Positions 22,176 through 47,685 of a DNA stretch of 64,000 nt are shown here, one piece after another; position 1 is the stretch's first letter, and every line of letters starts with the position of its first letter. The position numbers and the translations under genes were made by a program. Below the pieces are notes generated by a model. The model was not told the origin of the DNA. It did no database searches and was given only the letters and a program-made list of their open reading frames with translations. Source of the DNA: Acidimicrobiaceae bacterium (GTDB taxonomy: Bacteria > Actinomycetota > Acidimicrobiia > Acidimicrobiales > RAAP-2); assembly GCA_003155135.1 (NCBI GenBank), contig PMFN01000013.1, positions 62,001 to 126,000 of the forward strand, written 5' to 3'.

Positions 22176-22211
22176 AGCTGCCCCCTTGAGTCCACGCTGC
22201 CAGCTAACGAT

Positions 22212-22234
22212 ATTCCTGACATGATGTCAAGAAT
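22212..22234 (-). promoter_or_regulatory. 23-bp palindrome, probable TetR operator of the Rieske operon
   Basis: TGACAT and ATGTCA flank a single central G at 22223; outward of one mismatch the arms continue with ATTC and GAAT, so 10 of 11 pairs match. It lies between the TetR gene and the Rieske start, both on the minus strand. Length and symmetry suit a TetR dimer; which protein binds is inferred from proximity. Confidence 0.65.
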
Positions 22235-22261
22235 GTACCGTCTACCCTGCTGAGCGGCCGC

Positions 22262-35391: not shown

Positions 35392-36401
35392 GAGCTGCCG
35401 TCGTCCATGCGTTCGACCAACCTCTGCGCATCGAGGAGGTCCCGGTCCCCGAGCCGGCCCACGGCCAAGTGGTGGTGAGGATGGAGACCTGTGGGATTTG
35501 TCACACGGACATCCACGCCGCCCACGGCGACTGGCCGGTAAAACCCGCGCCGCCGTTCATCCCGGGCCACGAGGGCGTGGGCATCATCGACCGGGTCGGT
35601 GAGGGGGTCACCACTTACGCCGAAGGCGACCGCGTCGCCATTCCCTGGCTGGGCTACGCCTGCGGCGCCTGCGAGTACTGCGCCTCGGGACGAGAGACCC
35701 TCTGCGCCAAGCAAGAGAACTCGGGCTACTCGGTCAACGGTGCGTACGCCGAGTACGCGTTGGCCGACGCGTCCTTCGTGGGAGCGGTGCCCGAGGGCAT
35801 GGACCCGCTCGACGCCGCCCCGCTCACGTGCGCGGGGGTGACCACCTACAAGGCGGTCAAAGTGTCGGGTGCGCGTTCGACGGACCTCGTCGCCGTCTAC
35901 GGCATCGGCGGCCTCGGGCATCTGGCCGTGCAGTACGCGAGGATCGCCGGTGCCTCGGTCGCCGCCGTCGACCTCATCGATTCGAAGCTGGAGCTCGCCA
36001 CCGCCCTCGGCGCCGAATACGTCTTCAACGCCGCCACCGAGGACCCGGTCGAGGGCATCGTGGAGCTTGGCGGCGCCGACCAGGCGATCGTGCTCGCCGT
36101 GTCGCCCACCGCCTGCGAGCAGGCCTACCGCAGCCTGAAGCGGGGTGGGACGCTCGTCCTGGTCGGGCTGCCGGCGGACAACGTCATGGCCCTGCCGATC
36201 TTCGAGACCGTCCTCGGCGGCATCACCGTGACCGGCTCGATCGTTGGTACACGCGTCGACCTGGCCGAGACGTTCCAGCTGCACATGGAGGGCCGCACGC
36301 AGGTCGTGCGCGAGTCCCGGCGCCTGGAGGATGTGAACGAGTCGTTCGAGCAGATCGAAAAGGGGGACGTGGATGCCCGCCTGGTGATCGACTTCCGCTA
36401 G
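35388..36401 (+). CDS. adhP: Zinc-dependent alcohol dehydrogenase, AdhP type
   Basis: The 337-residue MDR enzyme has catalytic zinc ligands Cys38, His61 and Glu62 and the structural-zinc cluster Cys92, Cys95, Cys98, Cys106. The Rossmann loop is GIGGLG near residue 172. The stretch GICHTDIHAAHGDWP is the AdhP hallmark. It converts primary alcohols to aldehydes for the neighbouring aldehyde dehydrogenase. Its TAG stop shares the CTAG palindrome with the stop of the converging gene. Confidence 0.92.
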   Translation: MRAAVVHAFDQPLRIEEVPVPEPAHGQVVVRMETCGICHTDIHAAHGDWPVKPAPPFIPGHEGVGIIDRVGEGVTTYAEGDRVAIPWLGYACGACEYCASGRETLCAKQENSGYSVNGAYAEYALADASFVGAVPEGMDPLDAAPLTCAGVTTYKAVKVSGARSTDLVAVYGIGGLGHLAVQYARIAGASVAAVDLIDSKLELATALGAEYVFNAATEDPVEGIVELGGADQAIVLAVSPTACEQAYRSLKRGGTLVLVGLPADNVMALPIFETVLGGITVTGSIVGTRVDLAETFQLHMEGRTQVVRESRRLEDVNESFEQIEKGDVDARLVIDFR

Positions 36402-37672
36402 GCCGAGCCTGGGCCCACCACGAAGAGCCGTGTGACGTGGGAGAAGGTGGTCAGGTAGACATCGCGCTCGAAGCCCGCGGCAGGGAAGAGCACGGACTGG
36501 AGCGGGCTCTCGGTGTCGACGCGAGCCAGCTCGGCGCCCGTTCGGACGTCGAGGACCACCGCCTGTTCGATGCCGCGCGCCGTGTCGTAGTCACCGGTGA
36601 CCAGCTCGCCGGAGTCGGCGAAGAGCACCATGTGCGCACCGTGGTCCTGCTGGCGGGACCACCGTGGCGTGAGGGAGCCGCCCTCGCCGATCGAAAAGGC
36701 CGCCATCACCCCGTTGCCGGTGTCGAAGCCGACGGCGATCGAGCCGCCCTCGTCGATGACCGGCGGGTTGGCGATGAGGCCACCGACCAGGCCGCAGATC
36801 TCGGCGGTGGTGACCGCCCCGGTGGTGAGATCCGTGCGCACGAGGTGGAGCGGGGCTGACGAGACCCCGTGGCCCCGAAGGGTCCCCGAGTAGTGCTCCG
36901 AGCCCTCGCCGTCGTCGAGGAACCAGGCGGCGCCCGCCGCCAGCACGCAGTCCCAGCCGTAGGTCTGCCCCTCCATGGTGCGGTAGGGGCGGGCGAAGCC
37001 TTCCTCCTCGACGAGGTTCGCGCCGTCCCAGTGCGCCCGCAACAGGGTCGTGTCGCCGACGACGTAGACCGTGTCGTCGTTAGCCGACAACCGGGCGACC
37101 GAGGGCTCGGCGAGGATCGTGCGCCCGATGATCCCGAGGCGCTCGGGCTCGAGCACCACGAGCTCGCAGCGCTCGCGCGCAGCGGGGGCGACCGCGTGAC
37201 CCGGGCGTGAGCCGGCGAAGGCCTTGGTCACGAGCGAGCCGTCGGCGAGGACCACGAAGCCGTTGTAGGGGCGCCGGCGGGGGAGCTCGGTGGTGGCGAG
37301 GAGCGAGAGCTCGGCATCGAGCCGGTGGGCGTGGTTGCCGAACACGACGTAGAGCGATCCATTGGCGTGGGCGGCCAGGCTGCCCGGCCACGTCGGGCCG
37401 CCCTGGAGGTCGGCTGAACGCGCCAGTGGTTCGAGGGTGATGGGATCGATGCGCTCGACGAACGAGATGGCATCATCGCCCGCGGTGTGGCGCAGCAAGA
37501 AGACCTCGCCGGGATCACGGGTGACCACCATGGTCGCCGCGGGGGCGAGCCGAGACAGTGCCGCCACCGTCTCGCCGGGCGAGATGCCAAGCGCGGCGCC
37601 AGCGCCGGGCACCGCCTGACGGCGGGGGCCGCCGTCCTCGCAGGACCACGGACCAGGCCAGTAGGCGCTCAC
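36398..37672 (-). CDS. Uncharacterised protein with beta-propeller-like repeats
   Basis: The 424-residue product begins with GTG in a GTGA overlap with the sulfatase stop. It has repeated strand-turn units such as GSLYVVFGNHAHRLD, GFVVLADGSLVTKAFAG and DTVYVVGDTTLLRAHW, the pattern of NHL/Kelch/SMP-30-like propellers. There is no signal peptide. I cannot assign an activity; lactonase or carbohydrate-binding roles are possible. It is the last gene of the seven-gene sulfatase operon. Confidence 0.72.
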   Translation of the reverse strand: MSAYWPGPWSCEDGGPRRQAVPGAGAALGISPGETVAALSRLAPAATMVVTRDPGEVFLLRHTAGDDAISFVERIDPITLEPLARSADLQGGPTWPGSLAAHANGSLYVVFGNHAHRLDAELSLLATTELPRRRPYNGFVVLADGSLVTKAFAGSRPGHAVAPAARERCELVVLEPERLGIIGRTILAEPSVARLSANDDTVYVVGDTTLLRAHWDGANLVEEEGFARPYRTMEGQTYGWDCVLAAGAAWFLDDGEGSEHYSGTLRGHGVSSAPLHLVRTDLTTGAVTTAEICGLVGGLIANPPVIDEGGSIAVGFDTGNGVMAAFSIGEGGSLTPRWSRQQDHGAHMVLFADSGELVTGDYDTARGIEQAVVLDVRTGAELARVDTESPLQSVLFPAAGFERDVYLTTFSHVTRLFVVGPGSA

Positions 37673-39213
37673 ACCGGCGCCTCGAGGCGCAGCCGCGGCG
37701 ATCGGGTCGGCGGCTGGTTGTCCCACAGGTCAGCCACGAGGTCGTCGCGCTCAGCCCTGTGGGCCGGGTCGTCCCAGAGGTTGCGCTGCTGGCGCGGGTC
37801 CTCGTCCAGGTCATAGAGCTCGCCCTCGGAGCCGTCGTGGCAGGTGCCGGGCAGGTAGGCCGTGCAGACCAGCCCGTCCCGGGTGACGGTGCGGAGGTGG
37901 ACGTCGACGCCGAAGAGCTCACTGTCCCACTCGGTGAGCACTCGCTCGAACCCTCGTGCGTCGGCATCGGTGTCGTCGACCGGCAGCGGCCGGCCCTGCA
38001 TCCACGCGGGGACCTCGACGCCGGCGATGGCGCAGAACGTCGGTGCGAGGTCGATGAGACCGACCGGCTTGTGCACGACGGCCGGAGCCGGCCCGCTCGA
38101 GGGGGCGGGGCGCCATACGAGCGGCAGCCGCATCAGGGCGTCGACGTGGTACGGCCCTTTGAACATGAGGCCGAAGTCACCGCCGAGCTCGCCGTGATCG
38201 GTGGTGAAGACCACGTCGACGTCGTCGCCCCACCCGAGGCGCTCGATGTGCGCGAGCACTCGGCCGAGCGCCTCGTCGAGCAGCTCGCACTCGACCGCGT
38301 TTCGTGCCGTGACCTCTCGCAGCTGGTCGGGGGTGAGGGTGGCGGGAACCCACTTGCTCGGCGCCTCGTAGTTCGACACCAGCGTGCCGTCGTACCAGAG
38401 CCGCCAATGGCGCGGCTTGCCGTCCAGGATGCGCTCGCGCTCGGCCGTGCTCGTCGGGTAGCCCTCGGGTAGTGGCACGTCATGCCAGTCGATGCGGGCC
38501 ATCTCGTCCTCGGGCGGATCCCAGGGGTGGTGGGGGTCGGGGAAGCTCATCCAGCAGAACCAGTCGTCACCGGCATCGAGTGAGTCGAGCCACGCGATGG
38601 TGCGGTCCGCCACCCAGTCCGTGTGGTAATCGGCCCTCCTGATCGGGTTCACCTTCACCTGGGGTGCACCTGTCTCGCCGCCACCGTCAGCGCTCACCTG
38701 GAAGTCGGCGTCGAGCACCGGGTAGAAGCCGGCCAGTTCCTCGGGGTGCTCGGCGGCAAGCCAACGTGCATAGTGCAGCGGGCCCATGGCCCCGTGGGTG
38801 GCGAACTCGAGGTGCTCGAAGCCCCGATGGGCGCCGCTCTCGGGCTCGGTGCCATGCGCGGCGAGGGTGTTCTCCTCGAAGCGGCCGAAGACGTCGAGGA
38901 AGGGCTCGAAGTGCGCCTTGCCGACGATGGCCGTCCGATAACCGGCGTCACGAAGGACCGCTGCCACCGACGGTGCATCGTGGGGGAGCGGCACCCCGTT
39001 CATCCAGACGCCGTGCGTGCTCGGGTGTTGGCCCGTGAGGATGGTCGAGCGCGACGGCATGCACACCACCGATTGGGGGCTGGCTCGCTCGTAGCGGATG
39101 CCCGCCCGTGCCAGCGCGTCGACCGCCGGGGTTCGCGACAGCGAGCCACCGTTGCACCCGAGCGTGTCGTAGCGCTGCTGGTCGGTCGTGACGAAGAGGA
39201 TCTTGCGACCCAT
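37669..39213 (-). CDS. Sulfatase (formylglycine-dependent)
   Basis: The 514-residue enzyme has the formylglycine site Cys51-x-Pro-Ser-Arg in VVCMPSRSTILTG, metal-binding Asp11-Gln12 near the N-terminus and TTDHGELGGD for the second metal site. No signal peptide is present, so it is cytoplasmic, as for choline-sulfatase-like enzymes. Its ATG shares one base with the preceding SRPBCC stop (TGATG). It hydrolyses a sulfate or possibly phosphonate ester. A formylglycine-generating enzyme must be encoded elsewhere. Confidence 0.92.
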   Translation of the reverse strand: MGRKILFVTTDQQRYDTLGCNGGSLSRTPAVDALARAGIRYERASPQSVVCMPSRSTILTGQHPSTHGVWMNGVPLPHDAPSVAAVLRDAGYRTAIVGKAHFEPFLDVFGRFEENTLAAHGTEPESGAHRGFEHLEFATHGAMGPLHYARWLAAEHPEELAGFYPVLDADFQVSADGGGETGAPQVKVNPIRRADYHTDWVADRTIAWLDSLDAGDDWFCWMSFPDPHHPWDPPEDEMARIDWHDVPLPEGYPTSTAERERILDGKPRHWRLWYDGTLVSNYEAPSKWVPATLTPDQLREVTARNAVECELLDEALGRVLAHIERLGWGDDVDVVFTTDHGELGGDFGLMFKGPYHVDALMRLPLVWRPAPSSGPAPAVVHKPVGLIDLAPTFCAIAGVEVPAWMQGRPLPVDDTDADARGFERVLTEWDSELFGVDVHLRTVTRDGLVCTAYLPGTCHDGSEGELYDLDEDPRQQRNLWDDPAHRAERDDLVADLWDNQPPTRSPRLRLEAPV

Positions 39214-39617
39214 CAGTTCCTCGATTCCATGATGGTGCGGAGCTCGTCGAGGGCGCCGGCTGTTCCGCCGCCAATGAGGAGTGCCAAGGTGGCAGGGTCG
39301 GCGTCGGTGCTGTAAGCGACGAGGCTGGTGCCGTCCCCGAGGTCGAAGACATCGATGGTCCCGAGGTGCTCGTGGAACATCGGGGCATCGATGCGGTACT
39401 GGAAGCGGCGCAGGAGCGGGTCGACGGTGAGGAGGCGCTCGGGTATCGGCAGGCCGGTGGCGGTCGTGACGACCCGCTCGTCGCCGTCCACCGCCGACGA
39501 CACGATGCCGGGGAACCACTCGCACAGGCGCGCCGGGTCGCCCACCAGCTCCCAGACGTCGTCGGCGGGAGCGTCGATCCGCTTCTCGTAGCGGACCGAC
39601 CCGCGCCTCCCGTTCAC
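39213..39617 (-). CDS. SRPBCC (START-like) domain protein
   Basis: The 134-residue protein has the SRPBCC pattern: RYEKRIDAPADDVWELVGDP at the N-terminus, a bent sheet and a C-terminal helix ending DELRTIMESRN. The family binds hydrophobic ligands and includes polyketide cyclases. The GTG start overlaps the TetR stop by four bases. It probably binds or isomerises a hydrophobic intermediate of the pathway; no catalytic residues can be named. Confidence 0.82.
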   Translation of the reverse strand: MNGRRGSVRYEKRIDAPADDVWELVGDPARLCEWFPGIVSSAVDGDERVVTTATGLPIPERLLTVDPLLRRFQYRIDAPMFHEHLGTIDVFDLGDGTSLVAYSTDADPATLALLIGGGTAGALDELRTIMESRN

Positions 39618-40255
39618 ACCGGCGACTGCTCGCCGTCGAGCAGGGCGGTGAGCGACGCGACGAGCACAGCGGTCATCGCCTCGGCGCCGAGGTCCTGGTC
39701 ACCGATGAGCAGCTGGTAGGACTCGAACGAGCACAGCACGTCGGCAGCGGCGAGCACCGACGCCGCCCGGTCCTGGCCCATGGCCCCGAGCTCCCCGGCG
39801 AAGAGCTTCGCGATCTGGTGGCGGAGGTACGAGCGGGTGTTGCGCAGCTGGGTGGCCAGCACCGGCTGGAACGGCGAGCGAAGGCGTGACACGGTCGCCG
39901 CCGGCGCGATGGCCTCGAAGAGGCGGAGCCGCTGGGCGACGAGGGCGGCGATGCGCTCGGGCAGCGGCGCACCGGGCACGGCCGCGATCGGGACGAGCGG
40001 AAGGGCCCGCTCCAGCTGGCGCCCGAGGGCCGATCGGCTGAGGTCGTCGACGTCTTCGAAGTAGCGGAAGACCGAACGTGGCGAGAGCCCGGCGCGCTCG
40101 GCCACCTCTGAGGAGCTCGGTCGCAGGTTCCCCTCGCCGTAGAGGTCGAGCAGCGCGTCGACCACCGCCTGGCGGTTGCGGTCACGGCGTATGTGGCGCC
40201 CGTCGAGACTGTTCCCTTCGTCCTCGGGTCCGCTCCCCGCGCCCGGATCACTCAC
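39614..40255 (-). CDS. TetR-family transcriptional regulator in the sulfatase operon
   Basis: This 213-residue regulator has a helix-turn-helix at about 49-68 (SEVAERAGLSPRSVFRYFED). GTG 40255 overlaps the DUF2855 stop. Being in the middle of the operon makes it an autoregulator candidate for the 42717-42745 palindrome at the head of the same operon. The ligand is unknown. Confidence 0.87.
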   Translation of the reverse strand: MSDPGAGSGPEDEGNSLDGRHIRRDRNRQAVVDALLDLYGEGNLRPSSSEVAERAGLSPRSVFRYFEDVDDLSRSALGRQLERALPLVPIAAVPGAPLPERIAALVAQRLRLFEAIAPAATVSRLRSPFQPVLATQLRNTRSYLRHQIAKLFAGELGAMGQDRAASVLAAADVLCSFESYQLLIGDQDLGAEAMTAVLVASLTALLDGEQSPV

Positions 40256-41339
40256 GGGCACCGCCCAGGGTGCAGACATGGCCGACGCGAGGGTCGATGT
40301 GGCCGTCGAGCAGCTCCCGGTAGGTCGACTCGACCGACGCGGCGCCGTCCACGTGGCGGACATCGAGCCACCCGTCGACCCAGGGGATGAAGCGCTCCCA
40401 TGCCTCACGGACCGACGCCTCGAAGCCGTCCCGGCCCCACTCGCGGCGCCGCTTGGCGATCTGGTCCGGCGCGAAGAGCAGCGTGGGTCGCGGGCCCTCG
40501 AGGGCGATGTCGCCGACCTCCTCATTCTCCCAGTGCGTGTCGCCGACGACCATCGAGTAGGCCAGATCGGCACCGAAATGGGCGTGCACGGAGGCGGTCA
40601 CGTCGCGACGGCCGGCGACGTCGATGTACACGGCGGTGCCGGTCGGCAGCTCATCGATGTTCTCGTAGGTGACGACCTTTTCGTAGCAGCCGAGGGACCG
40701 GACGAACTCTGCGTTGGACTCCGATGTGAGGCCCACCACCTCGATCCCCTCGCGCCCGGCCAAGAGGAAGGCCGCACCGATGGCGGTCTTCGCCGACGCA
40801 GACGAGATCACGGCGGTGCTGGCGCCGTAGAGCCCGTGGTCGCCGAGGAAGTCGTCGACGACGAAGGAGGTGACGAACAGGGGCCACAGCAGCATCTGCT
40901 CGGCCTCATGGGCTGCGTCGTAGATGGGGTCGGCAGCCACGTAGGAGTAGCGGTTGTAGACGCTGGGGAGCGGCTGGCGGTGGGCGGCGACGTCGCTGAA
41001 GCCGCTCTCGTCGAGGCGGCCGGCCTCGACGACGAGCTCGTCGCCCATGGGGAAGTAGCCAAAGACCCGGGTCCCGATGGCGAGGTCGGGGGCCTCGGAC
41101 TCCGCGACCGTGGCGAAGCCCCAGACCGGGACGCGGCCCCAGAACACCCCGTCGCCGTCGGCAGCGGGGAAGAACTGCCAGTAGGACATGGCCTCGCCGA
41201 AGACCGCGTACGTGATGTTGTTCGACGTGAGGGCGAACGATTCCACGTGGAGACGCGCCGCACCATGGTGCAGCGGCGGCGTCGGCTCCTCGAGCACCCG
41301 CACGGTGCGCAGGTCCGAGCGGTCGACCTCAATCTGCAT
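40248..41339 (-). CDS. DUF2855 family protein (MDR-like reductase relative)
   Basis: A 363-residue protein with [19 protein letters not shown] near residue 35 and a Rossmann-like half ([19 protein letters not shown] near 175), the layout of the DUF2855 family related to medium-chain reductases. Zinc ligands of alcohol dehydrogenases are absent. Its start overlaps the DsbA-type gene by 11 bases. It may be an NAD(P)H-dependent quinone or enone reductase; this is inference. Confidence 0.83.
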
Positions 41340-42054
41340 GCTGGCCCCCCTCCCCATCCACTCGGGAGGCGAAGTTGATGACCTTTCCCCGGTTGATGCT
41401 GACCCAGTCGCGCGCCTCGAGGTACGGGCGGAAGGTCTCGACGATGCGACGCTCATCGGCGGGGGTCTTCGGTCGCTGCAACTCGAAGAGGTCGGGGAAC
41501 TCTCGCCACGCCAGCACGGCGTCCCACAGGCGAACGGCGGCATCGCCCGAAGGCGGGTCGATCAGCACGGGGCCGAAGAGGCACTGCCCGTCGGCGAAGA
41601 AGAGCGTGGGGACACCGAAGCCGCCTGCATCGATGACTCGTTGGTGTTCGGCGAGTACCTCCTCGCTTGTGCTCGGGTCGGCGATGGCCTCGTCGACCAA
41701 GCCCGGGTCGAGCCCGAGCTCTTCGAGGAGCGCCCTCGCCACGTCCGGTACGTGGGGCTTGTGGCCCTCCACGTGGAGGGCCCGCCCGGCGCGGGCGTAC
41801 CAGGCGTCGAGCTCGGCCATGTCGCGCCGCCGGAGCAGCGCGCCCACGCGCATCATGGACCAGCCGTAGGACCAGTCCCGCTCCCAGGGGTGCTTCTTGC
41901 CCTCGACGCGGTTGACCTCCTCGAGGCTGAAGAACCGCCAGTTGATGACGAGTCCGGTCCGCTCGCGCACCGAGCGGATCCACAGCGAGGTCTGGTACGC
42001 GTACGGGCACATCACGTCGAAGTGGAAATCGACGGTGTCGGGGCGCTGGCTCAT
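41329..42054 (-). CDS. DsbA-fold oxidoreductase/isomerase (mycothiol- or HCCA-isomerase type)
   Basis: The 241-residue protein has a DsbA fold with [16 protein letters not shown], a single active-site-like Cys16 in place of CxxC, and GVPTLFF near residue 147. This fits the group containing 2-hydroxychromene-2-carboxylate isomerase and mycothiol-dependent nitroreductases rather than true disulfide oxidases. It is cytoplasmic. The gene lies nine bases after the first gene of the operon. It could conjugate, isomerise or dehalogenate a substrate with mycothiol. Confidence 0.82.
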
Positions 42055-42063
42055 CGTCTTGCC

Positions 42064-42705
42064 TCAGTCCCCCGACGCCTCGCCGACCAGGTTGCGGATC
42101 TGATCGATGAGGGCCCGGGAGCGCACGACCATGGTGTCGGCGCCCTCGGTCTCGCCGGCACCGTCGGTCCACGAGATCCGCAGCGAGCCCCAACGGCGGT
42201 CGTCGCCGATGATGGTTCCTTCGACCTCGAACAGGGCGCCCTCCACGGTCGGCTCCGGTGTCGAGCCCGACGGCTCGGCGATGAAGCGCACGATCCCCGA
42301 GTCGTCGCCCTCCCCGCGCACCGGGCCGGCAGGCAGGGCGCACATGATGACCGTGAAGGCCATGCCGGCCTCCTTGTGGACGAGCTTGTCCTTGAAGTCT
42401 CGCCGGGACTGCATCTCGATGAAGGAACGGCGCGTCGGGTAGACGACGATGCCCATACGGTCCCAGGTGCCGTCGCCGTCGATGACGTCGCCGAAGTAGG
42501 CGACCTCGGCACCGATCGCGGCCAGCACCTCGACGGGTGCGTACCGGTCGTCCGCTGCGCGCCCGGAGATCTCGGGGCCGTCCCCGCCGTAGTCGGCGCG
42601 CTCTTTGTACTTCATGAAATTGACCATCCAGATGGGCCCATCGAGCGCCGGGTCGATGGTCGCCAGGTGCGCGCCGTAGGTGGTGTCGATGGCGCCGAAG
42701 TCCAT
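42064..42705 (-). CDS. DUF1330-like ferredoxin-fold protein, first gene of operon
   Basis: The 213-residue product starts MDFGAIDTTYGAHLATIDPA. Segments MVNFMKYKERADYGG and RYAPVEVLAAIGAEVAYFGDV resemble the DUF1330-type dimeric alpha-beta barrel proteins. The second half (GALFEVEGTIIGDDRRWG) has no clear relative. The ATG lies six bases after the -10-like TACCTT, so the mRNA may be leaderless. Such folds often house small monooxygenases or lyases; function is unknown. Confidence 0.68.
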   Translation of the reverse strand: MDFGAIDTTYGAHLATIDPALDGPIWMVNFMKYKERADYGGDGPEISGRAADDRYAPVEVLAAIGAEVAYFGDVIDGDGTWDRMGIVVYPTRRSFIEMQSRRDFKDKLVHKEAGMAFTVIMCALPAGPVRGEGDDSGIVRFIAEPSGSTPEPTVEGALFEVEGTIIGDDRRWGSLRISWTDGAGETEGADTMVVRSRALIDQIRNLVGEASGD

Positions 42706-42716
42706 GTCGTTAAGGT

Positions 42717-42745
42717 AACAGTTGACAGTCGTAATGACAACTGTT
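42717..42745. promoter_or_regulatory. 29-bp palindromic operator overlapping two divergent promoters
   Basis: AACAGTTG and CAACTGTT are perfect 8-bp arms around 13 bases, with further paired CA/TG inside. On the plus strand TTGACA at 42722-42727 is a -35 candidate. On the minus strand TTGTCA with 17-base spacing to TACCTT (42706-42711 region) gives a -35/-10 pair that ends six bases before the ATG at 42705. A bound repressor would block both directions. Confidence 0.65.
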
Positions 42746-42846
42746 TAGCCTCGGCGGGGAGGGTCCAGCGAAGGAAGGGGTACGGGAGTGAACGGCAGTC
42801 ACGGAAAGCTCCGGCAGACCGGCGCGCGGGGCTTCGGGGGACGGTC

Positions 42847-45105
42847 GTGACCACCGAACCCGGCTTCGCCGGGCGGATCGGCCGCACGTACCAGGACTCC
42901 GTGCCGGCCTGGCCCGACCTCCCGGCCGGCCTCGGTGGGCCCGATGTCGTGATGATCGTCCTCGATGACACCGGCTTCTCGCACTTCGGCTGCTACGGCT
43001 CGACGCTCGCCACACCGAACATCGACCGCCTGGCGGCGGGGGGGCTCCGCTACACGGGCTTCCACACGACCGCGTTGTGCTCCCCGTCGCGGGCGTGCCT
43101 GCTGACCGGGCGCAACCACCACAGCGTCGGGATGCGGGCGGTGTCGAACTGGAACACCGGCTTCCCGCACATGCGCGGTGGCATCACGCCGAGGGCCGCG
43201 ACGGTGGCCGAGCTGCTCCGTGCCCACGGGTACGCGACCTATGCGGCGGGGAAGTGGCACCTGGCCCCGATGGCGGAGACCTCCGCGGCGGGCCCGCACA
43301 CCAACTGGCCGCTGCAGAAGGGCTTCGACCGCTTCTACGGCTTCCTCCAGGGCGAGACGGACCAGTTCTTCCCGGAGCTGACCCACGACAACCACCACAT
43401 CGACCCGCCCGGGCGGCTCGAGGACGGCTACCACGTGAGCGAGGACATCGTCGAGCACTCGATCGGCTGGGTCCGCGACCTCGTCTCGGTCCGACCCGAC
43501 CGTCCGTTCTTCTTGTACCTGGCCTTCGGCGCCACTCATGCGCCCCATCAGTCACCCGAGTCGTACCGGGCGCGTTGGCGAGGCAAGTTCGACGAGGGCT
43601 ACGACGTGGCGCGCCAGCGCTTCTACGAGCGACAGCTCGAGCTCGGGATCATCCCAAAGGGCACCACCCTTGCCCCGCGCAACCCCGGCGTGCCGCCCTG
43701 GGACGACTTGACCGACGCCCAAAAGGCGTTCTCGTCCCGCCTCCAAGAGGCCTTCGCGGCGATGCTCGAGCACACCGACGCGCAGATCGGCCGCCTTGTC
43801 GAGTTCCTGGCGGAAGAGGGGCGGCTCGACAACACGTTGCTCATGGTGGTCTCGGACAACGGTGCGAGCCGTGAGGGCGGCCCGTTCGGGGTGATGGACG
43901 AGTTCAGCTTCTTCAACGGCCAGGCCGAAGACGTCGACCGGCTGGTGGCCGAACGCCTGGACGACATCGGGGGGCCGCACTCGCACAGCAACTACCCGTG
44001 GGGATGGGCCCAGGCGGGCAACTCGCCACTGCGCTGGTACAAGCAGAACACCTACGGGGGAGGGGTCCGTGACCCGCTCGTCGTGCACTGGCCCGAGAGG
44101 GTGGAGCAGACCGGGGAGCTCCGGACCCAGTTCTGCCATGCCATCGACATCGCCGCCACCATCCTCGACGCCACCGCAGCGCCCCTGCCCGAGCAGTTCG
44201 GGGGCGTGGCGCAGATCCCGCTCCACGGCCGCTCCATCGTGCCGACCTTCAACGACGCCGGGGCGCCATCCCCGCGCACCGTGCAGTACTTCGAGCAGAT
44301 GGGCCACCGCGGCATCGTCGCCGACGGATGGAAGGCGACCACCTACCACGAGCAGGGTTCGGGCTACGGCGAGGACGAGTGGGAGTTGTTCTGCCTCGAC
44401 AATGATTTTTCCGAGTGCCACAACCTGGCAGCGGCTGAGCCCGAACGGCTCCGCAAGCTGATCGACTTGTGGTGGTCCGAGGCGGGCGAGATGGGCGTAC
44501 TGCCGCTCGACGACCGCACCATCGAGCTCTTTGGTGGCGACGCGCGGCCAGGAAGCCCGCACGCGCGCAGCACGTACCGCTACCTCGCACCGATCTCGCA
44601 CATCCCTGCCGACGCGTCGCCGACCCTCGGCGGTCGTGCCTGGACCATCACCGCCGACGTCGACGTCGACGTGGAGGGCCAACCCCACGGCGTGCTCTAC
44701 GCACGGGGAAGCCACAATGTGGGACACACCTTCTTCTTGGGCGACGGCGCGCTGGTGTTCGACTACAACGCGCTCGGCACCCACCACCGGGCCAGCGCAC
44801 CGGTGGACCTCGGCCCGGGCCGCCACTCGCTGGTGGCTCGCTTTGATCGTGACGGCTCCGGTGGCATGCTCACCATCGCCGCCGACGGCGCCGACCTGGC
44901 GAGCGTGGCCATCCCTCGGATCATCCGGATGCTCGGATCGACCGGCATGGACATCGGGCGCGATGCCCTCTCCACGGTGGTCGACGACTACGAGGGTCCC
45001 AACCCGTTCACCGGCACCGTCGAACAGGTGACCGTCGAGGTGCGGAGCCAGCCCGGGCCGGCCGACGTGGCGGCCCAAGCGGCCACCGAGATGGCGCGCG
45101 AATGA
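42847..45105 (+). CDS. Arylsulfatase-type sulfatase
   Basis: This 752-residue sulfatase has Cys78-Ser-Pro-Ser-Arg (formylglycine site) in TALCSPSRACLLTGRN, metal Asp40-Asp41 and VSDNGASREGG in the middle. The length with a C-terminal beta domain is that of the large actinobacterial arylsulfatases. No signal peptide is seen. GTG 42847 is used; the open frame continues upstream but is antisense to the divergent operon. It is first in a three-gene operon with DinB and haloalkane dehalogenase, and is divergent from the smaller sulfatase operon. Confidence 0.92.
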   Translation: MTTEPGFAGRIGRTYQDSVPAWPDLPAGLGGPDVVMIVLDDTGFSHFGCYGSTLATPNIDRLAAGGLRYTGFHTTALCSPSRACLLTGRNHHSVGMRAVSNWNTGFPHMRGGITPRAATVAELLRAHGYATYAAGKWHLAPMAETSAAGPHTNWPLQKGFDRFYGFLQGETDQFFPELTHDNHHIDPPGRLEDGYHVSEDIVEHSIGWVRDLVSVRPDRPFFLYLAFGATHAPHQSPESYRARWRGKFDEGYDVARQRFYERQLELGIIPKGTTLAPRNPGVPPWDDLTDAQKAFSSRLQEAFAAMLEHTDAQIGRLVEFLAEEGRLDNTLLMVVSDNGASREGGPFGVMDEFSFFNGQAEDVDRLVAERLDDIGGPHSHSNYPWGWAQAGNSPLRWYKQNTYGGGVRDPLVVHWPERVEQTGELRTQFCHAIDIAATILDATAAPLPEQFGGVAQIPLHGRSIVPTFNDAGAPSPRTVQYFEQMGHRGIVADGWKATTYHEQGSGYGEDEWELFCLDNDFSECHNLAAAEPERLRKLIDLWWSEAGEMGVLPLDDRTIELFGGDARPGSPHARSTYRYLAPISHIPADASPTLGGRAWTITADVDVDVEGQPHGVLYARGSHNVGHTFFLGDGALVFDYNALGTHHRASAPVDLGPGRHSLVARFDRDGSGGMLTIAADGADLASVAIPRIIRMLGSTGMDIGRDALSTVVDDYEGPNPFTGTVEQVTVEVRSQPGPADVAAQAATEMARE

Positions 45106-45674
45106 CGGGCCCGGCGTTGGTCCTCGATTCCCTGCAACGGCGAATGCGAGCCCTGCACTCGCTCTATGACGACGCGCTCGCCACCATGGACATCGACCAG
45201 GTGAACCACTTCGAGCGCGAGGGCGTCGTGCCCATAGCCTTCAGCATCTTTCACATCGTGAACATGATGGACGCCTCGTTCTTCCTCATGACCGGTACCC
45301 CACCCATCTGGGACGACGAGTGGGAGGCAACGGTCCTCCCGGCCATCGCCGACCACGGCAAGCACCGCAGCGTGGCCGAGATGGTGCACCAGCGCATCGG
45401 CGGCTACGAGGCGTTCGGCGACTACATGCGGGCGGTCTTCGACCGCACAGAAGCATGGCTGGCTGCACTCGACGCGAGCGAGCTCAACCGGGTGGTCATC
45501 GGGCGGCCGCTCCCCGAGCAGATCGCCAGCACGTACAGCGCCCGTGTGGCAGGCCCACAGGGCATCACCCTGCTCGACGCCGCCGAGTGCTGGATCTACC
45601 AGCACGGCCTGCGCCACATGGGCGAGATCGAGCTTGCCCGGGGCCTGGTCGGCCTCGGCGGCATGACCTCGTAG
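45102..45674 (+). CDS. DinB-superfamily protein
   Basis: The 190-residue protein starts in an ATGA overlap with the sulfatase stop. It is helical, with His51 in SIFHIVNMMD and a late QHGLRHMGEIELARG segment, matching the three-histidine metal site of DinB/YfiT four-helix bundles. Family members include mycothiol-dependent maleylpyruvate isomerases and thiol transferases. The coupling with a dehalogenase suggests mycothiol-linked detoxification, as inference. Confidence 0.78.
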   Translation: MTGPALVLDSLQRRMRALHSLYDDALATMDIDQVNHFEREGVVPIAFSIFHIVNMMDASFFLMTGTPPIWDDEWEATVLPAIADHGKHRSVAEMVHQRIGGYEAFGDYMRAVFDRTEAWLAALDASELNRVVIGRPLPEQIASTYSARVAGPQGITLLDAAECWIYQHGLRHMGEIELARGLVGLGGMTS

Positions 45675-45744
45675 GCACCGACGGTCCCGACGGCCGACGA
45701 GCAACGACCAACGACCAACGCGAACAACCGAAAGGAACGCCATC

Positions 45745-46656
45745 ATGGAGACCCTGCGCACTCCCGACGAACGCTTCGCCGGGCTGGCCGACTTCGACTT
45801 CGCCCCCCACTACGCCGAGATCGACGACGGCGACGGTGGGCAGCTGCGGGTCCATTACTTGGACGAGGGTCCGCCTGCCGGCCCTGTGGTGCTGTTGCTG
45901 CACGGCGAGCCCTCGTGGTCGTACCTCTACCGGCACATGATCCCGGTCCTCGTCGCACGGGGCCACCGCTGCATCGCGCCGGACCTGGTCGGCTTCGGCC
46001 GGAGCGACAAGCCGGCCGCCACGTCGGACTACACCTACACCGCGCACGTGGATTGGATGTCCGAGCTCCTCTTCGGCACGCTCGACCTGCGCGGCGCCAC
46101 GCTGGTGGGCCAGGATTGGGGAGGCCTCATCGGGCTGCGGTTGCTGGCGGGACGCCCGGAGCGCTTCGCCGGCGCAGTGATCGCCAATACCGGCCTCCCG
46201 ACGGGCGACGCCCCCATGAGCGACGCCTTCTTGGCCTGGCAGCAGTTCTCGAAGGAGTCGCCCACGTTCCCCATCGGGCGCATCATCGACGGCGGGTGCA
46301 CGAGCACGCTGGACGACGAGGTGGTCGCCGCGTATGACGCGCCCTTCCCCGACGACGCCTTCAAGGCGGGCGCACGGATCTTCCCGACCCTGGTGCCGAC
46401 CACGCCCGATGACCCGGCCCACGACGACAACGAGGCTGCGTGGGCGGTGCTGCGCACGCTCGAGAAGCCGTTCCTCTGCGCGTTCAGCGACTCGGACCCC
46501 ATCACTAGAGGGGGCGACGCCGTCTTCCGCCATGAGGTTCCCGGCGCGACCGGCCAGCCCCATACGACGATCGTCGGCGGCGGCCACTTCCTCCAAGAGG
46601 ACCGGGGCCCCGAGCTGGCGGGCGTCGTTGCGGACTTCATCGCCTCCAACAGCTGA
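45745..46656 (+). CDS. Haloalkane dehalogenase (HLD-I type)
   Basis: The 303-residue alpha/beta hydrolase has nucleophile Asp124-Trp125 in VGQDWGG, HGEPSWSYLYR at 53-63 (Glu55 and oxyanion residues), acid Asp251 in FSDSDP and His281 in GGGHFLQ. Trp165 in the cap can be the second halide ligand. It hydrolyses carbon-halogen bonds to an alcohol and halide. AAAGGAACG precedes the ATG. Some close relatives act on other esters or epoxides, so the activity is well supported but not certain. Confidence 0.87.
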   Translation: METLRTPDERFAGLADFDFAPHYAEIDDGDGGQLRVHYLDEGPPAGPVVLLLHGEPSWSYLYRHMIPVLVARGHRCIAPDLVGFGRSDKPAATSDYTYTAHVDWMSELLFGTLDLRGATLVGQDWGGLIGLRLLAGRPERFAGAVIANTGLPTGDAPMSDAFLAWQQFSKESPTFPIGRIIDGGCTSTLDDEVVAAYDAPFPDDAFKAGARIFPTLVPTTPDDPAHDDNEAAWAVLRTLEKPFLCAFSDSDPITRGGDAVFRHEVPGATGQPHTTIVGGGHFLQEDRGPELAGVVADFIASNS

Positions 46657-46923: not shown

Positions 46924-47685
46924 TTAGTCGCTCGGGACCTCGTCGCCACTGGGCTGGCGCTCGGCGGCGTGCTCGACCATCTCGCGGGCGATGTCGCGCA
47001 GCTTGCGGTTCTCGCGTTGGGAGGCGCGGACGAGGATCTGGAACGCGTCATCGGGCGTGGTGGCGCCGTTGGCCAGCAGTATGCCGATGGCGTAGTCGAT
47101 GGTGGAACGCGAGTCCATGGCCTGTGTGAGGTTCTCGCTCAGCTGTTGTGCGTCCCAGTAGACCTGCGTGTTGGCGAGGACGATGGCGGCCTGCTCGGCG
47201 AAGACGCTGGCCCGATCGCTGGCCTGGTCGTCGAAGATCCTGTTCCGTGAGTAGAGGTTCAGCGCGCCCAAGCTGACGTCCCGGGCGACGAGCGGCAAGG
47301 AGAGGGTGGCGATGATCCCGTGGGCGGCGGCCATGGCGGCGAGCTCGGGCCAACGCTGCTCGGCCGCCGTCGAGTCGATGCGGTACGTCTCCTGGTGGCG
47401 GAAGGCGTCGAGGCAGGGTCCCTTGCCCGATTTGTACTGGGCCTCGTCGATCTCTGGTGCCTCGGGATCGGTGAAGACGCCGGTGCGGGCCTTGCCCCCG
47501 ACCAGCATGGTGATGCCGGCCATGTCGGCGGGTGCAACGTCGCAGGCCAGCTGGGAGACTTTCAGTAAAGTATCGCCGAGCGTCCCGTCGTTCACGAAAA
47601 AACGCGAAAGTGCGTGCACGCCCGCGGCCCGCGGATCCTCGGCCACCGTCGCTCCTGACTCGGTGAGCGACCATTTGCGTCCCAC
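46924..47685 (-). CDS. GAF-ANTAR RNA-binding antiterminator protein
   Basis: The 253-residue protein has a GAF domain at about 30-180 and ANTAR at about 184-240 (STIDYAIGILLANGATTPDD helix pair). GAF segment KSGKGPCLDAFRH is like the one at 24078. It starts at GTG with no clear ribosome site. Two large hairpins lie in the 144 bases upstream on its own strand, which might form a structured leader. The target RNA is unknown. Confidence 0.88.
   Translation of the reverse strand: MGRKWSLTESGATVAEDPRAAGVHALSRFFVNDGTLGDTLLKVSQLACDVAPADMAGITMLVGGKARTGVFTDPEAPEIDEAQYKSGKGPCLDAFRHQETYRIDSTAAEQRWPELAAMAAAHGIIATLSLPLVARDVSLGALNLYSRNRIFDDQASDRASVFAEQAAIVLANTQVYWDAQQLSENLTQAMDSRSTIDYAIGILLANGATTPDDAFQILVRASQRENRKLRDIAREMVEHAAERQPSGDEVPSD

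Follow-up and report, generated by a model that had tools for sequence, protein, structure and literature searches.

A predicted TetR-family operator across two interlocked divergent promoters of a sulfatase-centred gene cluster in Acidimicrobiales

By comparing regulator loci across the order, we find that the 29-bp palindrome at 42717-42745 is very probably the operator of the TetR-family regulator encoded at 39614-40255, which would repress the two divergent operons on either side of it and be released by a ligand. The palindrome lies in a 64,000-nucleotide stretch of an Acidimicrobiales genome, here called the window. This reading is carried by features documented by sequence comparison: the palindrome itself, the promoter elements it covers, the conserved linkage of site and regulator gene, the fixed spacing of the two core halves, and their constant distance to start codons.

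Results

The palindrome separates a plus-strand operon that begins with a sulfatase gene from a minus-strand operon (Table 1). Neighboring genes of the minus operon overlap or are separated by gaps of 9 bp. The original prediction that the TetR gene belongs to this operon was confirmed, and its start is probably a GTG at 40255 that overlaps the stop codon of the DUF2855 gene. Sulfatases of this type require a formylglycine-generating enzyme, and a candidate for one is encoded in the genome. Across Acidimicrobiales, the gene set of 36398-46656 (two sulfatases, SRPBCC, DinB, DsbA/Rv2466c-like, DUF2855, and haloalkane-dehalogenase-type hydrolase) occurs in reshuffled order. In the literature, we found no paper describing the sulfatase-centred cluster, or a TetR regulator with a sulfatase in Acidimicrobiia as a system, and a search on DUF2855 returned nothing. 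The idea of a chlorosulfolipid substrate was dropped for lack of any evidence, as no paper was found on bacterial degradation of such compounds by sulfatases. Separately, a minus-strand open reading frame at 46924-47685 resembles a GAF-ANTAR regulator on inspection by eye alone.

Table 1. Predicted regulatory elements and genes of the cluster, in window coordinates
Feature	Position	Strand	Basis or remark
Predicted operator palindrome, 29 bp, AACAGTTGACAGTCGTAATGACAACTGTT	42717..42745	.	Symmetry and family consensus
Conserved operator core TTGWCA-N7-TGWCAA, here TTGACA-GTCGTAA-TGACAA	42722..42740	.	Spacing-7 specificity, 80 + 40 hold-out loci
-35 of plus (sulfatase) promoter, TTGACA	42722..42727	+	
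-10 of plus promoter, TAGCCT, 18-bp spacer	42746..42751	+	Best candidate; agrees with relatives
-35 of minus (TetR operon) promoter, TTGTCA	42735..42740	-	
-10 of minus promoter, TACCTT, 17-bp spacer	42712..42717	-	
ATG of first minus-operon gene, offset 35 from -35	42703..42705	-	Family-wide offset statistics
Sulfatase (PF00884), first plus-operon gene, GTG start behind GGGGGA	42847..45105	+	Start fits homologues
DinB_2 protein, weakly resembling mycothiol transferase	45102..45674	+	
Alpha/beta hydrolase, haloalkane-dehalogenase subfamily model PRK00870	45745..46656	+	
First minus-operon gene, no Pfam/NCBIfam match	42064..42705	-	Homologues adjoin TetR in other genomes
DsbA / Rv2466c-like mycothiol-dependent nitroreductase family	41329..42054	-	
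DUF2855 protein	40248..41339	-	
TetR-family regulator, proposed binder	39614..40255	-	Recognition helix SPRSVFRYF (R66, P0001 numbering)
SRPBCC / Polyketide_cyc2 protein, overlapping TetR stop	39213..39617	-	
Second sulfatase (PF00884)	37669..39219	-	
Conserved protein without family match, last minus-operon gene	36398..37726	-	Recurrent in clusters

The regulator itself scored 21.2 bits against Pfam TetR_N, below the cut-off of 24; this model was matched by 20 of its 24 aligned homologues (best 1.1e-8), and a profile of the family retrieves TetR-family repressors of solved structure, among them LfrR (2v57) and KstR. By homology, the protein appears to carry the N-terminal TetR_N helix-turn-helix by which the TetR family is recognized. 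A single-sequence structure model was poor (pLDDT 63), with TetR-type PDB matches at E values of at least 1.8e-3 and TM scores of 0.3-0.44. Members of the subfamily were found almost exclusively in the order to which the window belongs, and the genome itself holds four matches to other, weak homologues.

The original prediction described perfect 8-bp arms with additional inner symmetry, and the palindrome agrees: AACAGTTG and CAACTGTT match perfectly, and three further pairs inside them bring the symmetric positions to 11 of 14. The genome scan that was proposed for it, run by pattern like all our own-genome searches (AACAGTTGNCAN7TGNCAACTGTT, up to 3 mismatches), returned this palindrome as the single match in the 3.14-Mb genome. 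Of the window's perfect 8-bp inverted repeats (gaps 0-20, 88 in all), only two have AT-rich arms, this one included; when the local 55-bp segment was shuffled, some perfect 8-bp inverted repeat (gap 4-20) appeared in 0.45% of shuffles. Taken by itself, the palindrome is thus suggestive: a chance origin is only mildly improbable, and the symmetry is indecisive. A second AT-rich palindrome, GATATTCCTGACATGATGTCAAGAATGTA, is also symmetric at 11 of 14 positions and lies at 22209-22237 of the window.

The original prediction also placed a TTGACA on the plus strand under the palindrome and a TTGTCA...TACCTT promoter on the minus strand, and both were found exactly so. It named no plus-strand -10 box, which we supply as TAGCCT. 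The two promoters point outwards and interlock, each -35 box sitting within the spacer of the other. A generic promoter scan reported neither of them because it demands at least 9 of 12 matches. On the plus strand, transcription would be expected to start near 42757, giving a predicted leader of ~90 nt before the sulfatase start codon.

Looking outward from predicted sites with a cluster gene downstream, a TAnnnT lay 16-19 bp past the -35 in 35 of 45 site directions (background 0.6%) and a start codon lay at offset 34-37 from the -35 in 32 of 45 (background 15%), with contrasts that are somewhat overstated because the background rates come from random locus positions rather than AT-rich promoters only. 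An offset of 34-37 coincides with the expected transcription start, which implies leaderless mRNAs. The minus promoter of the window matches the family pattern exactly (TTGTCA, 17 bp, TACCTT, ATG at offset 35), and its transcript is predicted to be leaderless, starting at 42705. There is no start codon at the predicted plus-strand +1, so in the window one side only would be leaderless. As a side observation, the promoter on the TetR side tends to carry TTGTCA and the opposite one TTGACA, as though the regulator were given the weaker promoter of the two. This held in 9 divergent pairs (the window, L075, L078, L086, L104, L106, L234, L236, and L237) vs 2, and at p = 0.065 we make no claim of it.

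The comparison rests on a search for TetR homologues across 198 genomes of the order, from which 80 TetR loci (810 kb, window included) were read. In most loci examined, the homologues adjoin the same gene set, often divergently and in varying gene order. An exact search of relatives for the full AACAGTTG/CAACTGTT arms gave no match outside the palindrome's own genome, because the outer arms vary too much. The inner core emerged only when the divergent intergenic regions of relatives were read, which revealed a shared dyad TTGWCA-N7-TGWCAA. These inner 19 bp are the best-conserved part, which refines the earlier reading of a 29-bp palindrome; the outer AACAG/CTGTT letters are more loosely conserved (A-A-S-W) and extend into the -10 boxes. 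Drawn from 11 cluster promoters, the family consensus is AASWnTTGWCA-N7-TGWCAAnWSTT.

The spacing within this core is close to invariant. Exact cores at spacing 7 numbered 11 in the 80 loci, every one of them at most 121 bp upstream of a cluster gene, and a single further core occurred across the remaining spacings between 0 and 20 (spacing 8, L080). For the order as a whole, a summed count of about 97 exact matches in the 198 genomes (roughly 0.6 Gb) corresponds to an expectation of about 0.1 in 0.8 Mb. With a symmetric position weight matrix applied leave-one-out, the best match exceeded the 99% level of shuffled loci in ~35 loci; most of these matches lie no more than 130 bp upstream of a cluster gene. 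We then turned to a hold-out of 40 loci from genomes outside the motif derivation, with predictions written before the loci were fetched. Here, spacing 7 gave 7 exact cores and 22 with at most 1 mismatch, compared to at most 1 and 4, respectively, for any other spacing.

Among TetRs of group A, whose recognition helix reads x-R-S-x-F-R, a site with at most 2 mismatches lay within 220 bp of a recognized cluster gene in 16 of 31 loci of the first set, and a core with at most 1 mismatch was present in 13 of 24 hold-out loci. About half of the group-A loci had no recognizable site within 220 bp of a recognized cluster gene. Loci with a homologue of the first minus-operon gene and no TetR homologue held only scattered 1-mismatch matches (4 of 33). 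Elsewhere in the order, most exact cores lack a TetR of this kind in their neighborhood, and the core therefore cannot serve as a diagnostic mark by itself. In the window's own genome, a search for a wider regulon found 1 exact core, and relaxing it to 2 mismatches gave 77 matches vs 50 for a reversed control, which are mostly chance; we rejected these as candidates.

The operator also varies with the regulator. In group B, Ser or Ala replaces Arg66 of the recognition helix, and in the first set these loci (helix x[SA]S) carry TGNGAGTNNNACTCNCA in 12 of 14 cases vs 0 of the 66 others. Because these B loci contributed in part to the motif, the hold-out gives the less biased figure: TGNGAGTNNNACTCNCA in 5 of 5 group-B loci (helix x-[SA]-[ST]) vs 2 of 35 others. 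In a tree built without the recognition-helix columns, all TetRs with the B operator fell in one clade, which indicates one evolutionary change rather than independent events and left a test of independence for the covariation of helix and operator without power. Our prediction that TetRs with an xRS.Y helix would have neither operator did not hold for 2 of 6 loci in the hold-out.

Some loci fit neither type neatly. In L112 (4670-4712), a near-perfect 29-bp dyad, AACTATTGCGAGTCACTCTTGCAATAGTT, precedes a TetR that is transcribed together with a sulfatase and looks intermediate between types A and B. The type A operator is absent from most SHRS loci, and two loci whose TetRs have a SHRSVFRYF helix hold a different dyad, TTTGGCAGTCTGACTGCCA (L102, 6274-6316; L103, 9190-9232), possibly a third operator type.

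These comparisons bear on what the symmetry is for. It could reflect a bidirectional promoter and nothing more, with divergent -35 hexamers kept at a fixed distance for RNA polymerase; each arm is indeed a -35 hexamer with its own matching -10 box and start codon, and bacteria commonly have bidirectional promoters that arise from DNA symmetry (PMC12825309). We consider this unlikely, given that the dyad is retained where one promoter only is evident (L164) and where the -35 arms are poor (the L112 dyad), that the clade with an altered recognition helix has other dyad letters, and that the W and S letters, which lie outside the -35 and -10 boxes, are symmetrically conserved as well. Slightly less probable still is an operator for a different regulator encoded elsewhere in the genome. 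Sites can be read from afar, and the weak TetR homologues noted above would be at hand, but the regulator met next to the site again and again in the order is this TetR, with a recognition helix that tracks operator type, and a single exact core in the genome suits a local regulator. A chance palindrome without regulatory role, for which the shuffles and the choice of the segment out of 64 kb might speak, can be set aside almost entirely, contradicted as it is by the same dyad, spacing, and start-codon position in many loci, including the hold-out.

An operator of the neighboring TetR is thus the reading we prefer. The palindrome overlaps a promoter, and its fixed spacing is conserved together with the regulator gene across genomes, the features looked for in a TetR operator. 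The original prediction, an operator over both divergent promoters with the 39614 TetR as the candidate binder, gains support in both respects from linkage, from the fixed-spacing dyad in the first set and the hold-out, from the covariation of helix and dyad, and from the conserved promoter overlap with its constant distance to start codons.

Discussion

In the proposed mechanism, the predicted operator covers both -35 boxes of the interlocked divergent promoters together with the spacer they share. With one TetR dimer, or two, seated on the 19-bp core, RNA polymerase would be excluded from both promoters. This would repress the minus operon, and with it tetR itself, so that the regulator represses its own gene, and it would repress the plus-strand sulfatase operon at the same time. 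TetR would then be released by a ligand, probably one of the pathway's substrates or products. Binding, repression, and induction by a ligand are inferred here from the usual behavior of TetR-family proteins. For comparison, TetR occupies a 15-bp dimer site and QacR a 28-bp tetramer site (sizes quoted in PMC4482099). These operators are palindromic like ours, and the comparison is one of size: the 19-bp core would suit one dimer, and the 29-bp whole could take two.

TetR autorepression at divergent promoters is a known kind of control and not a new one here. In E. coli, PacrA/acrR is a bidirectional promoter at which AcrR is a TetR-family autorepressor, and it shares with the window a TetR-family gene divergent from its target, with regulator sites overlapping the promoter (PMC12825309). 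However, its promoters share a -10 sequence, whereas those of the window have nested -35 boxes and -10 boxes at the outer ends. Also unlike PacrA/acrR, the window has the -35 pair inside the predicted operator and at least one transcript predicted to lack a leader.

Related systems are found in mycobacteria, where about 60% of TetR genes are divergent to their neighbor and palindromic operators are typical; those divergent to metabolic genes include KstR, KstR2, and BkaR, along with 11 palindrome-predicted motifs (PMC4482099). That set and the window share actinobacterial TetRs, palindromic operators, short divergent intergenic regions, and enzyme targets (PMC4482099). By contrast, our subfamily is nearly confined to its own order and tied to a sulfatase-centred cluster, with the operators compared by description only, and the window TetR lies inside its operon instead of being the first divergent gene as in the KstR/KstR2/BkaR-type set. 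The differences from these systems are the nested -35 boxes, the predicted leaderless start, the near one-order subfamily, and the target cluster.

We also advance a broader reading, tentatively and at somewhat less than even chances. In it, the dyad would be TetR operator and -35 pair at once, for two promoters that exclude each other and are largely leaderless, and would have been kept across the order despite reshuffled genes; the change of Arg66 to Ser/Ala would have moved one clade to a different operator with the same center.

Together, these results provide a proposed regulator, a predicted operator, and a map of promoters for a sulfatase-centred cluster that is widespread in Acidimicrobiales, and tie two operator consensus sequences to the type of recognition helix. 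The system is compact, lending itself to the joint study of repression, promoter competition, and leaderless starts. If the dual role of the dyad and the Arg66 switch hold true, these loci would form a natural series for operator-specificity switching and polymerase competition.
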